DNA from: Caballeronia ptereochthonis
GTDB lineage: Bacteria > Pseudomonadota > Gammaproteobacteria > Burkholderiales > Burkholderiaceae
Direction of reading: 5' to 3'
NCBI RefSeq assembly: GCF_001545075.1
Contig: NZ_FCOB02000008.1
Span: 1 to 64,000, forward strand
Length of the DNA stretch: 64,000 bases
Shown here: piece by piece, positions 37,316-41,636 of the stretch
How the letters are laid out: each line of letters begins with the position of its first letter
Position numbering within the stretch: position 1 is the first letter of the stretch
Translations under genes and position numbers: made by a program
The notes under the pieces: generated by a model
What the model was told of the DNA's origin: nothing
What the model saw: only the letters and a program-made list of their open reading frames with translations
The model's database searches: none

Positions 37316-38245
37316 TCAGTCGAGAATGAAGTCGCGCGACGGCGCGAACGGCTTGGGCGCGTGGGCAAAATCGGGATCCGCCGCCATGTCGTGCAATGCG
37401 ACTTCGATCGTCTCGCACATCGCGTTTAGCGCGAGATCGTTCTCCTCGAGGCCGAACGGATCCTCGATCTGCGCGGCGATCGCTTCCAGCGACATGAACG
37501 CATACGCCACGAGCAGCGCAAAGAGCGGCGTGAGCAGGCCCGCGCCATCGACGAGCCCGAAAGGCAGCAACATGCAGAAGAGATAGACCGTGCGGTGGAT
37601 CATCACCGAATAGGAGAACGGCAGCGGCGTGGTCGCGATGCGCTCGCAGCCGCCGATCACATCGGACAGCGAATTCAGATTGTGTTCGATCGCGAGCAGC
37701 GCAAAGCCATCGATGGCGCCTTCGCGCTTGCGCTCGGCGGCCCATTCACCGAGCCAGAGCAGGATCAGCGCGGGTGGGAACTTCGCGGCGGCCACGCGTG
37801 CGTGCAGCTCGGGCGGCAGGCGCGGGGAGAGATCGGCGAGCGCATCGGTGCCGCGCAACTGATGACGCAGCGCGTGCGCCAGCGCGCCCAGGGCGGCGAG
37901 AAAGCGGCGGGTTTGAGCGGGGTCGCGCGGATCGGGCAGTGACAGCGCCTGGCGTCCGAGCGAGCGCGCCGTAATGACGAGCGTGCCCCACAGCCTGCGG
38001 CCTTCCCACCAGCGCTCGTAGCTCGCGCCGTTGCGAAAACCCAGAAACACCGCAAGCGCGATGCCCACGAGCGCGAACGGCGGCGTGCCGAGCCCGATCG
38101 GATACGTGCGCATATGGTCGTGCATGAAGATCGCCACCACCGAAAGCGCGAAGATCAGTCCGAGGCGCGGCAGCAGTTGCGGCAGCACGGAGCCTCGCCA
38201 CACGAACAGCAGCCGGAACCAGTTGAGCTTGGGGCGAATGATCAT
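37316..38245 (-). CDS. Bestrophin-like (UPF0187) membrane channel
   Basis: A 309-residue inner-membrane protein of the bestrophin/UPF0187 family, with about four hydrophobic helices. Family features include the N-terminal RPKLNWFRLLFVWRGSVLP, FLGFRNGASYERWWEGRRLWG and, near the C-terminus, the acidic EDPFGLEENDL. Bacterial homologues form pentameric anion or cation channels; E. coli has the related YneE. It is a single gene with no obvious operon partner. The low-GC ATPase/DUF4276 pair begins about 155 bp upstream of its start. Confidence 0.9.
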   Translation of the reverse strand: MIIRPKLNWFRLLFVWRGSVLPQLLPRLGLIFALSVVAIFMHDHMRTYPIGLGTPPFALVGIALAVFLGFRNGASYERWWEGRRLWGTLVITARSLGRQALSLPDPRDPAQTRRFLAALGALAHALRHQLRGTDALADLSPRLPPELHARVAAAKFPPALILLWLGEWAAERKREGAIDGFALLAIEHNLNSLSDVIGGCERIATTPLPFSYSVMIHRTVYLFCMLLPFGLVDGAGLLTPLFALLVAYAFMSLEAIAAQIEDPFGLEENDLALNAMCETIEVALHDMAADPDFAHAPKPFAPSRDFILD

Positions 38246-38399
38246 GACGGGACGCGGCGATTACATGCAGCGCACTCTGAGATCGGAGCAATATGGTTGC
38301 CACACCTGCTTTGACCGCGGTTGCTCCTTCGTACGTTGAAGCGATGCGATTGATCGTGAGCTGGCATCGCCCCCATCGTCCCTTCCTGATGTTTCGTTT

Positions 38400-38984
38400 T
38401 CACGTATTCGCTTGCTCTGCGACTACACGAGCGACGCCTTCGATGAATGCTGCGTAGCTTCGAGACTTGTTCGACCCGTGTTCGACGTTCAGATTAGGCG
38501 CGATTAGCCGAGCGCCTGCCAACTTCTGATAGGAAGGAATCAACGATTTCAATTCGATGGATGGCTTGTTCCAAGAATCGGGCTCGGCGAAGCGCTTCGC
38601 ATGGCGAGGCACGTTGAATTTTTGGTTCGGGTAAGCACGACGGAGCGCTTCCATGTCACCAAGATACCAGCTTTCAAGTTCTTGGCAGACCAAGCGAATC
38701 AAGGTTTCAGGCCTCTTGGCTTTTCGGCATTGTTCCAATAGCCGACCCTTCAGCGCAAGGCAGTCGGCGTTATCATTGTCTCGGACAACGACGAAACGAA
38801 CGTTTGGTTCGCGCCACGCTAACAATTTGCGCGAAATGCTTCGATCAAGGTCGGTCTTGCCCTCATGAGGTACACATTGAAAGTGTTCGTGGCGCACCCA
38901 GCCGGGAACCAAGCGAGGTAGAAGCTGATCGAGGAGGGTCGCCATTGATGGTTCTTCGACAAGAAAGATAATGCGGCCACTCAC
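38400..38984 (-). CDS. DUF4276 family protein (Toprim-like), partner of the adjacent ATPase
   Basis: A 194-residue protein. It shows the DUF4276 pattern: an N-terminal strand with conserved acidic residues, IIFLVEEPSM, then the Toprim-like acidic motif VVVRDNDNADC, and RLVCQELESWYLGD with a conserved Glu. Together these would form a metal-binding Toprim-type active site, so nuclease activity is a reasonable inference. I chose the GTG at 38984 because it forms a GTGA overlap with the ATPase stop codon and brings the family motif to the N-terminus. An ATG at 39017 would overlap the ATPase by 37 nt. Base composition is clearly lower in GC than neighbouring genes. Confidence 0.8.
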   Translation of the reverse strand: MSGRIIFLVEEPSMATLLDQLLPRLVPGWVRHEHFQCVPHEGKTDLDRSISRKLLAWREPNVRFVVVRDNDNADCLALKGRLLEQCRKAKRPETLIRLVCQELESWYLGDMEALRRAYPNQKFNVPRHAKRFAEPDSWNKPSIELKSLIPSYQKLAGARLIAPNLNVEHGSNKSRSYAAFIEGVARVVAEQANT

Positions 38985-40168
38985 CGATTGACCCCTTCGA
39001 ACAAACCTTGTTTCCAAAGATACCCAGGCAGATCACCATGTTCGAAAAGCGATCGTAGATTCTGTGAATCGCTCGCTCTGGAAATGCTAGAGAAGCCTTT
39101 TTCCTTTCTTAGGCAGTAGATTTCGTCGAGACTCAATGCATTGAGGAAGTCCGGAGAGTGCGTGGAAATGAAGACTTGACCTCCACGACGCGCATAGTCA
39201 CGAAACTCCTCTGCGAGTTCAGGTAGCAGTTCTGGATAAAGCTGATTCTCAGGTTCTTCAACCGCAAGCAACGGGTACGGTTGCGGATCATGCAAGAGCA
39301 CGAGATACGCGAACATCTTGATAGTGCCATCGGACACATATCGTGCAATGAAGGGGTCCTTGAAGCTGCCATCTTGGAATCTAAGTACGAGCCGCCCATC
39401 TTCAGTAGGTTTAGCTTCGACGACAGATACGCCCGGGACCCGACGCTGCATTGCATTCAACACTTTATCGAAAGCGTCGCGATGATTCTCAAAGAGGTAG
39501 TTCGCAACTAATGGAAGATTATCTCCGCGCGTGGAAAGATGTTCCGCAAAACCATCCTCTTGGCTTGGGCGCGCCTCGGAAACATGGAAATCCGAAATGT
39601 GCCAATTTTCGATCATCGTGCGAAAAGCACTTGCGGCCTTAAAACGGTCGAACTGGCCCAGACCTTTGATCGCGAGGATATCCGGCGCATCAAGTTCTTG
39701 TTCCTCTCGAGTAAGAAGTTCGTCAGCCTTCGAAAAATCTTCCTCATTCGTGATTGCGTAGCCCTTTCCGTAGTTGAAATCAAGGAAACGGAAAGGCGCA
39801 CCAAAACTTCCACGCTTGTATCGTAAAACCTCGCGGGCGACTATCGGGCGGCCGCTCTGATCTGGCTCGATCTTCAGGAGATAAGTGACCAAGCGTTCAC
39901 GCCCCGTGATCTCCAGGCGAAATTGCAAAGTGAATTCGATCGGCTCGTTCGCATGTCCGCGGCTGGCCAGTTCTTTGAAACCACCGCGTTTCGAGACAGC
40001 CTTTCCGACGTTCATCGATAATGCATCTTTCAAAAACGAAAAGACGTCGAAGAGAGTCGACTTACCTGTTCCGTTTGCGCCAACGAGGACGCAGAGGCGA
40101 GGTATATCCGTCAGTTTTGCGTCCCGGAAGAGCCGGAAATTTTTTATCTCGATGGATTCGATTTGCAT
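38981..40168 (-). CDS. AAA_21/OLD-type ATPase of a two-gene module
   Basis: A 395-residue SMC/ABC-like ATPase. It opens IESIEIKNFRLFRDA, with Walker A at residues 30-38 (GANGTGKST). An ABC-like signature lies in YVSDGTIKMFAYL, followed by Walker B LLAVEEPEN, a D-loop-like ENQLYPEL and the H-loop FISTHSPDFLNAL. This is the arrangement of OLD-family and RecF-like ATPases, but without a fused Toprim nuclease; that function would be supplied by the overlapping DUF4276 gene. The ribosome-binding site AAGGTG precedes the ATG at 40168. Codon usage is relaxed and AT-richer than the flanking argH and bestrophin genes, suggesting horizontal acquisition. The pair resembles ATPase-nuclease defence modules such as PARIS or Gabija in logic, not necessarily in identity. 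Confidence 0.85.
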   Translation of the reverse strand: MQIESIEIKNFRLFRDAKLTDIPRLCVLVGANGTGKSTLFDVFSFLKDALSMNVGKAVSKRGGFKELASRGHANEPIEFTLQFRLEITGRERLVTYLLKIEPDQSGRPIVAREVLRYKRGSFGAPFRFLDFNYGKGYAITNEEDFSKADELLTREEQELDAPDILAIKGLGQFDRFKAASAFRTMIENWHISDFHVSEARPSQEDGFAEHLSTRGDNLPLVANYLFENHRDAFDKVLNAMQRRVPGVSVVEAKPTEDGRLVLRFQDGSFKDPFIARYVSDGTIKMFAYLVLLHDPQPYPLLAVEEPENQLYPELLPELAEEFRDYARRGGQVFISTHSPDFLNALSLDEIYCLRKEKGFSSISRASDSQNLRSLFEHGDLPGYLWKQGLFEGVNR

Positions 40169-40232
40169 AGTGTCACCTTGGAATCATGCATATATCATGA
40201 ACCCCCGACTCGTCCGAAGGCGGGTTGCATAA

Positions 40233-41636
40233 TCAAAGCGCCGCGCGCGCCGCCTTCGCCGCCGCGCGCACCTGATCCGGGGCGGTGCCGCCCGGATGAT
40301 TGCGGCTCGCGACCGAACCTTCGAGCGTCAGATACTCGAACACGTCCTCGCCGATGAGATGCGCCACGTTCGGCAATTCCTTGCGCATTTCTTCCAGCGA
40401 AAGGTCCGCGATATCGCATTCGCGATCCACGCAGATGCGCACCGCGTGCGCGACCGCTTCGTGTGCGTCGCGGAAGGGCAGGCCGCGCTTCACGAGGTAG
40501 TCCGCGAGATCGGTCGCGGTCGAGAAGCCTTGGAGCGCCGCCGCGCGCATCGCCTGCGGCTTGACGGTGATGCCCGCCGCCATTTCCGCGAAGATGCGCA
40601 GCGTGTCGACGACCGTATCGACGGTATCGAACAGCGGTTCCTTGTCTTCCTGATTGTCCTTGTTGTAGGCGAGCGGCTGGCCTTTCATCAGCGTGAGCAG
40701 CGCCATCAGATGGCCGTTCACGCGGCCGGTCTTGCCGCGCGCGAGTTCGGGCACGTCCGGGTTCTTCTTCTGCGGCATGATCGACGAGCCGGTGCAGAAG
40801 CGGTCCGCCAGATCGATGAAGCCGACGCGCGGGCTCATCCACAGCACGAGCTCCTCGGAGAAGCGCGACACGTGCGTCATGATGAGCGCGGCCGCCGCAG
40901 TGAATTCGATCGCGAAATCGCGGTCGGACACGGCATCGAGCGAATTCGCGCAGATGCCGTCGAAGCCGAGCGTCGCAGCGACCGCGTGACGGTCGATCGG
41001 ATAGCTCGTGCCCGCGAGCGCCGCGGCGCCCAGCGGCAGGCGGTTCACCCGCGTGCGGCAATCGCGCATGCGCTCGGCGTCGCGCGCGAACATTTCGACG
41101 TAGGCGAGCAGGTGATGCCCGAACGTCACCGGCTGCGCGACCTGCAGGTGCGTGAAGCCGGGCATGATGGTGTCGGCGTGCTTCTCGGCCATGTCGATGA
41201 GCGCGGCGCGCAGGTCCTTCAGCAAGTCGCCGATGCGGTCGATCTCGCCGCGCAGCCACAGACGGATGTCGGTCGCGACCTGATCGTTGCGCGAGCGGCC
41301 GGTGTGCAGGCGCTTGCCGGCATCGCCGATCAGCGCGGTCAGACGCGCCTCGATGTTCAGGTGCACGTCTTCCAGATCCAGCTTCCACTCGAACTCGCCG
41401 CGCTCGATTTCGCCCTTGATCTGCGCCATGCCGCGTTCGATCGCGGCGAGGTCGTCGGCGCCGATGATCTTCTGCGCCGCGAGCATCGACGCATGCGCGA
41501 GCGAGCCCTGAATGTCGACGAGGGCGAGCCGCTTGTCGAAGAACACCGACGACGTATAGCGTTTGACGAGCTCCGACATCGGCTCGGAGAAGCGAGCCGA
41601 CCAGGCTTCGCCTTTTTTGTGGAGTTGGGACGTCAT
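40233..41636 (-). CDS. argH: Argininosuccinate lyase ArgH
   Basis: Last enzyme of arginine biosynthesis, splitting argininosuccinate into arginine and fumarate. The 467-residue protein belongs to the fumarase/aspartase superfamily, with the signature [12 protein letters not shown] beginning at G283 (S284/S285 in the flexible catalytic loop). It also has [13 protein letters not shown] and the [17 protein letters not shown] block. The start at 41636 gives the standard [16 protein letters not shown]. No other arg gene is adjacent. Confidence 0.97.

Follow-up and report, generated by a model that had tools for sequence, protein, structure and literature searches.

The pair of genes considered here, an OLD/ABC-type ATPase gene followed by a gene of the domain family DUF4276, is likely an OLD-type defence module split over two genes, of the kind listed as HEC-01 (Hma-embedded candidate 1, PADLOC-DB), that was acquired as one cassette. 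It lies in the window, i.e., the whole analysed stretch of 64,000 nucleotides of Caballeronia ptereochthonis DNA. On the minus strand the ATPase gene comes first (38981..40168, 395 aa, ATG start) and the DUF4276 gene second (38400..38984, 194 aa, GTG start, with a predicted OLD-type Toprim fold); a longer in-frame TTG start of the latter is possible and would give 205 aa. The ATPase stop codon overlaps the DUF4276 start codon in the four nucleotides GTGA (38981..38984, minus strand), through which translation of the two genes would be coupled. An earlier note on this DNA had described this layout, and the open reading frame (ORF) coordinates confirm it.

The ATPase matches the Pfam families AAA_21 (E 4.6e-33) and AAA_15, and the small protein matches DUF4276 (E 1.2e-14, 55 bits against a cut-off of 30); judged by these scores, the AAA_21 and DUF4276 matches are not chance. 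Each protein has one match in its own genome (DUF4276 by family search, the ATPase by protein search). PADLOC models of HEC-01 cover nearly the whole length of both proteins, with PDLC04144 matching the ATPase (E 5.9e-194, 642.6 bits, residues 1-394 on model positions 1-393 of 395) and PDLC04143 the small protein (E 9.2e-56, 186.5 bits, residues 4-191 on 3-187 of 190). The A and B labels of HEC-01 are swapped between its subfamilies, and we therefore use the names ATPase and nuclease. The candidate defence system proposed in the earlier note is supported, with the correction that the module is already catalogued in PADLOC. HEC systems were reportedly defined in a 2024 preprint by Payne; contrary to its name, the HEC-01 pair of the window is not embedded in Hma and lies between a bestrophin gene and argH. 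A literature search found no experiment on an ATPase-DUF4276 pair and no antiviral test of HEC-01. HEC-01 appears as a defence system in one paper (PMC12724379), and several HECs, HEC-06 among them, show antiviral activity according to another (PMC12988326).

The ATPase carries the complete motif set of the broad OLD family, namely Walker A (GANGTGKST, with K36), the signature (SDG, 279-281), Walker B (VEEPEN, with E304/E305) and the H-loop (THSP, with H337). All four had been claimed before and prove to be conserved; in an alignment of the window with 69 related loci, K36 and H337 are each retained in 69/70 sequences. Compared with solved structures, the ATPase profile reaches PtuA, OLD, retron ATPases, AriA and GajA, and lower down the heads of Rad50 and SMC proteins.

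For the small protein, the predicted model has a Toprim fold, as the earlier note had suspected. OLD nuclease regions form the top five solved matches listed when the 1000 chains ranked highest by Foldseek were compared and the best 50 entries were listed; AriB is one of the families that such a list may miss. In profile-profile comparison DUF4276 also matches OLD, with a probability of 82.8% (90.5% with a second setting) for an input of 20 of 21 OLD loci, one being too short, whereas 40 column-shuffled controls, run with the first setting only, reached at most 0.66%. Queried with the sequence of the small protein, the PDB yielded no match up to E 10. The profile of the small protein hit only designed helical proteins and CytR there, at profile positions 129-203, and these hits, two of them with E below 0.001, were set aside as chance or composition. 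Together with the HEC-01 models for both genes, the predicted OLD-like fold argues for a role in defence.

The metal site can be compared with that of BpOLD, in which metal A is bound by E400, D455 and D457 and metal B by E404, T506 and E508, with K562 as the catalytic lysine (PMC6755086). The small-protein motifs FLVEEPS, RDNDNADC and ELESWYLGD are present as they had been described and their acidic residues are conserved: E10 is found in 68/70 sequences (window and 69 loci), D69 in 66/70, D71 in 64/70, and E104 in 66/70, while E102 falls within the range of 62 to 68. K154 is likewise retained, in 62/70. E10, D69 and D71 align with the Glu and DxD positions of OLD metal A, which are thus all occupied. 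E104 aligns with the E508 type and E102 stands at the T506 position; K154 is a candidate for the lysine by its spacing, which is similar to that of K562, without column-to-column alignment. The E404-type position is Met in 68/68 residues of the HEC-01-like set (two gaps) but E or D in 20/20 OLD proteins, so that the metal B pair of E404 and E508 type is incomplete. The split OLD-type effector claimed in the earlier note is supported by fold and pairing, but its metal site is not the standard OLD site. Outside this set, the position is again non-acidic in the E. coli (Ala) and Synechocystis (Leu) relatives, as read by eye.

A different picture emerges from the wider set of DUF4276 proteins (33 of 38 loci, picked by frame length), where the E404-type position is E in 26 and D in 2, and the second Asp of the DxD motif is Tyr in 22/33. 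Counted per sequence, 63/70 of the HEC-01-like set are without the E404-type acid but keep the second Asp, and 2/70 are without both; in the wider set 25/33 keep the first acid without the second Asp, two have both, three are like the HEC-01-like set, one has neither and two have gaps. The HEC-01-like branch also has a second Glu (E11) beside the first. The metal site is thus altered in two nearly reciprocal ways within the DUF4276 family. Without the E404-type carboxylate the nuclease could cut weakly or in an altered manner, which weakens the case for defence. Taken further, the uniform Met at this position, along with the few sequences that also lack the second Asp, could indicate that DUF4276 keeps its Toprim fold as a structural part only and no longer cuts; the retention of E10, D69, D71, E102, E104 and K154 would be unexpected in such a non-catalytic protein, and we give this reading only a very slight chance.

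A second feature is found at the C-terminus of the ATPase, in a tail with GYLW (GxLW motif; 38984..39046, minus strand) that is conserved in DUF4276 partners. The pattern occurs in 70/70 sequences of the first, HEC-01-like set and in 33/37 frames of the wider DUF4276 set, the four misses comprising one motif further inside, one broken gene and two members of another subfamily. Across 28 AAA_21 loci it was present in 8/8 with an adjoining DUF4276 gene, the window's own pair being one of these, and in 0/20 without (Fisher p 3e-7); this is not a blind test, as the pattern was picked after reading the tails and then tightened, and a looser pattern in the last 70 residues also fits 4/20 AAA_21 loci without DUF4276. 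We regard the association of the GxLW tail with DUF4276 partnership as a strong lead from sequence comparison, and the tail may dock the nuclease.

Co-occurrence of the two genes in other genomes, the further expectation of the earlier note, is borne out. Relatives of the small protein were collected at 70 loci, and 69 of these have an ATPase match immediately upstream, at an intergenic distance (from estimated starts) of -14 to +65 nt in 68/69, the exception (L041) being a shortened, broken copy. A separate draw of best-scoring, i.e., not random, matches found the ATPase beside DUF4276 in 28/29 phylum loci, the 29th being at a contig edge, and in 9/9 genus loci. The two genes are thus a near-obligate pair. 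Moreover, the pairwise distances among the ATPases correlate with those among the DUF4276 proteins (Mantel r 0.946, 64 pairs, 0/999 permutations as high, with six of the 69 loci omitted for partial genes), and this, like the near-constant upstream position of the ATPase, supports a defence module. Within a close clade of 14, the nuclease had diverged more than the ATPase in 91/91 comparisons (mean 0.347 vs 0.154). At one locus (L071, 3925-4904), a DUF4276 relative follows an ORF that ends, by eye, like the ATPase tail and begins with what we take to be the start of a type I methyltransferase subunit, possibly a recombination product or a remnant.

The spread of the family is patchy, since any DUF4276 was found in 8/58 genomes of the genus (own included) and in 61/299 genomes of the phylum. 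Searched by tblastn with the small protein, the nine other DUF4276 loci of the genus yielded only L078 (28% identity, E 6e-9; next E 0.47), and its profile recovered L078 (1.8e-33) and, weakly, L079 and L077. No close copy of the pair was seen in the other 57 genus genomes searched. Phage records contained no match to the small protein and two distant ATPase matches, and viral contigs held three loci (28-33%).

The pair occupies an inserted stretch of 1987 bp (38246..40232) between a bestrophin gene (37316-38245) and argH, encoding argininosuccinate lyase (40233-41636), both assigned by Pfam. GC content is 0.49-0.53 in intervals inside the pair vs 0.61-0.75 in intervals outside. Among 29 same-genus loci, taken as best matches (53 other genomes have a bestrophin match), the gap between bestrophin gene and argH is 100-191 bp in 17, three of these values being slightly overestimated because the argH match stops before the protein end, and 603 bp in one; argH is beyond 1.5 kb or not found in the other 11. 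Longer stretches were retrieved for ten of these 11, two of which start at a contig end, and for the 603-bp locus, the eleventh locus lying at a contig edge; only one of the ten contained argH, at a distance of 5171 bp. The ATPase-DUF4276 pair is a cassette acquired as one unit, and its insertion at a site that is compact in most of the 29 loci, together with the patchy spread, adds to the case for defence. The same distribution and the low-GC insertion, as well as the defence and mobile-element context of relatives described below, tell against an OLD/Rad50-related nuclease pair that serves DNA repair or housekeeping and has no part in defence. Such a pair would agree with the reach of the ATPase profile to Rad50 and SMC heads and has a precedent in Cran1, an OLD-fold ATPase-nuclease that works in the cell cycle (PMC12796447). 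Despite this precedent, which weakens the inference of defence, we hold a repair or housekeeping function to be very unlikely.

A PADLOC scan of six flanking genes gave a single match, a methyltransferase-type hit to mad2, and this weakens the defence interpretation; the earlier statement that the pair is the only clearly accessory unit in the window was checked against these six genes. A defence hotspot at the argH-bestrophin junction is unsupported by the 29 same-genus loci, and a rough ORF list for 9/11 longer stretches held nothing recognised by eye as defence. In some other species of the genus (L111-L119), different genes adjoin the bestrophin gene, e.g., a gene whose product carries HGTLETP close to its N-terminus. 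Alignment of nine compact relatives revealed a hairpin after argH within the gap. A search of the window for the hairpin of one relative, allowing up to 3 mismatches, gave no match, and argH transcription might therefore run into the ATPase gene. A promoter scan returned 3 sites vs 1.1 expected, none of them in front of the pair because all lie on the plus strand, and a terminator scan returned 3 vs 2.7 expected. A near search of plasmid records with a flanking stretch gave no match. Elsewhere in the same genome, an open frame of 591 residues on contig C106 (L176) has an OLD-like Toprim match.

Defence-type genes are found in the neighbourhoods of relatives. At a threshold of 1e-20, 150 PADLOC families were matched by 106 neighbour ORFs from 20 of the closest loci vs 15 by 106 control ORFs, figures that count families and not ORFs, as one ORF can match many, and that depend on a rough ORF caller; counting in families, and the 15 matches of the control regions, weaken this line of support. 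The neighbour list was meant to draw on the 26 closest loci but was full (after L021) before six of them had contributed; for the control, a list of 143 ORFs was cut to its first 106, which covered 11 of 14 regions. Six of 8 chosen neighbours had PADLOC matches. Type I restriction subunits adjoin the pair at two loci (L007 and L008, the former also with the candidate PDC-S02), Wadjet JetC at another (L013), and a type III methyltransferase and a helicase at a fourth (L010); the HmaB and HmaC models were matched by two neighbour ORFs each.

On pSYSM of Synechocystis sp. PCC 6803 (L123, 6820-8561), a related pair with a 1-nt overlap (61% and 39% identical) adjoins a cysteine desulfurase gene, with a phosphorothioation-associated gene two genes away and the toxin-antitoxin genes RelE/ParE-HigA and nucleotidyltransferase-DUF86 nearby. 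In E. coli, DNA matches covering a fifth of the query, within the ATPase, occur in 6/5426 genomes, and in the two examined (L217 and L218, 8289-10036) the pair is flanked by the CI repressor and integrase genes of a prophage, with 61% and 37-38% identity and a 4-nt overlap as in the window. We take this prophage to be P2/186-like; places between cI and the integrase of such prophages often hold defence cargo. The defence-type neighbours, the prophage cargo and the phosphorothioation-associated gene all favour a defence function. Copies on plasmids and in prophages, the tight coupling and the toxin-antitoxin genes near the pSYSM pair could be cited for a toxin-antitoxin-like addiction pair, in which a nuclease toxin would be held by the ATPase and the main benefit would be persistence of the cassette. 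This we consider unlikely, given that the ATPase gene precedes its partner and is the better conserved of the two, and that in PARIS either gene can be deleted without toxicity, defence then being lost (PMC9122126).

A dyad of an OLD-ABC ATPase and a Toprim protein has already been described (PMC12839542, PMC10568477). TOPRIM-linked OLD-ABC dyads in BREX loci have been proposed as back-up effectors beside restriction-like systems (PMC12839542) and have the same architecture as the ATPase-DUF4276 pair. OLD Classes 1-3 combine ATPase and Toprim in one protein, unlike the two-gene pair, and Class 2 OLD/GajA differs both in its single gene and in the E404-type residue that is lost here. Gabija was rejected, there being two genes with no fused GajA and no match to GajB (UvrD-like) in the six flanking genes, and so was MADS, with a mad3 score of 116 bits vs the NF047739 cut-off of 420. 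HEC-04/IbfA likewise joins an ABC ATPase to a Toprim domain, but in a single fused gene; for HEC-04, protection from the phages T4 and T5 has been reported (PMC12111858), which lends support to a defence function of the present pair.

PARIS (AriA/AriB), the Class 4 OLD system (PMC10568477, PMC12796447), is alike in that an OLD-type ATPase gene precedes the Toprim nuclease, which has a gene of its own. Its nuclease AriB is however a DUF4435 protein, whereas the nuclease here belongs to DUF4276; membership in the PARIS family was rejected, as DUF4276 is the only family matched by the small protein at E values up to 10 and the genome contains no match to DUF4435. Fused, one-gene forms of PARIS are known as well (PMC9122126), whereas no ATPase-DUF4276 fusion was seen and no DUF4276 match of the phylum search lies in an open frame longer than 377 aa; in this longest frame the match is in two pieces, with a stop inside one. 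It can be speculated, with somewhat less than even confidence, that DUF4276 pairs are a class of split OLD systems of their own apart from PARIS, with recruitment through the GxLW tail and a Toprim centre rebuilt in two ways.

By analogy, the evidence fits a split OLD system that would work like PARIS, in which AriA, on sensing a phage protein, sets free the Toprim nuclease AriB, which cuts tRNA (PMC12409363). We infer that the ATPase would form a complex with the DUF4276 Toprim nuclease as a regulatory or sensing scaffold, holding it probably via the conserved C-terminal GxLW tail. An infection cue, e.g., a phage protein or a DNA intermediate, would change the state of the ATPase, which would then release or activate the nuclease. 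The latter would cut nucleic acid by a metal-dependent Toprim mechanism, and cleavage would stop the infection, for which the cell would probably pay a price. The substrate could be DNA, as OLD and GajA cut DNA (PMC6755086, PMC10568477), or RNA, given the tRNA cleavage by AriB.

The system itself is catalogued and not a new kind. What is added is the fold assignment together with the altered metal site and the tail, since no paper found in the literature search names DUF4276 (PF14103). A domain of unknown function thereby gains a predicted fold and a predicted active site, and HEC-01, a listed defence candidate, is linked to the OLD nucleases. If DUF4276 pairs do form their own class, the two branches may cut different substrates. 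The possible docking tail and the altered metal site are two features that can be tested, and the related pair in E. coli prophages offers a tractable laboratory version of the system.
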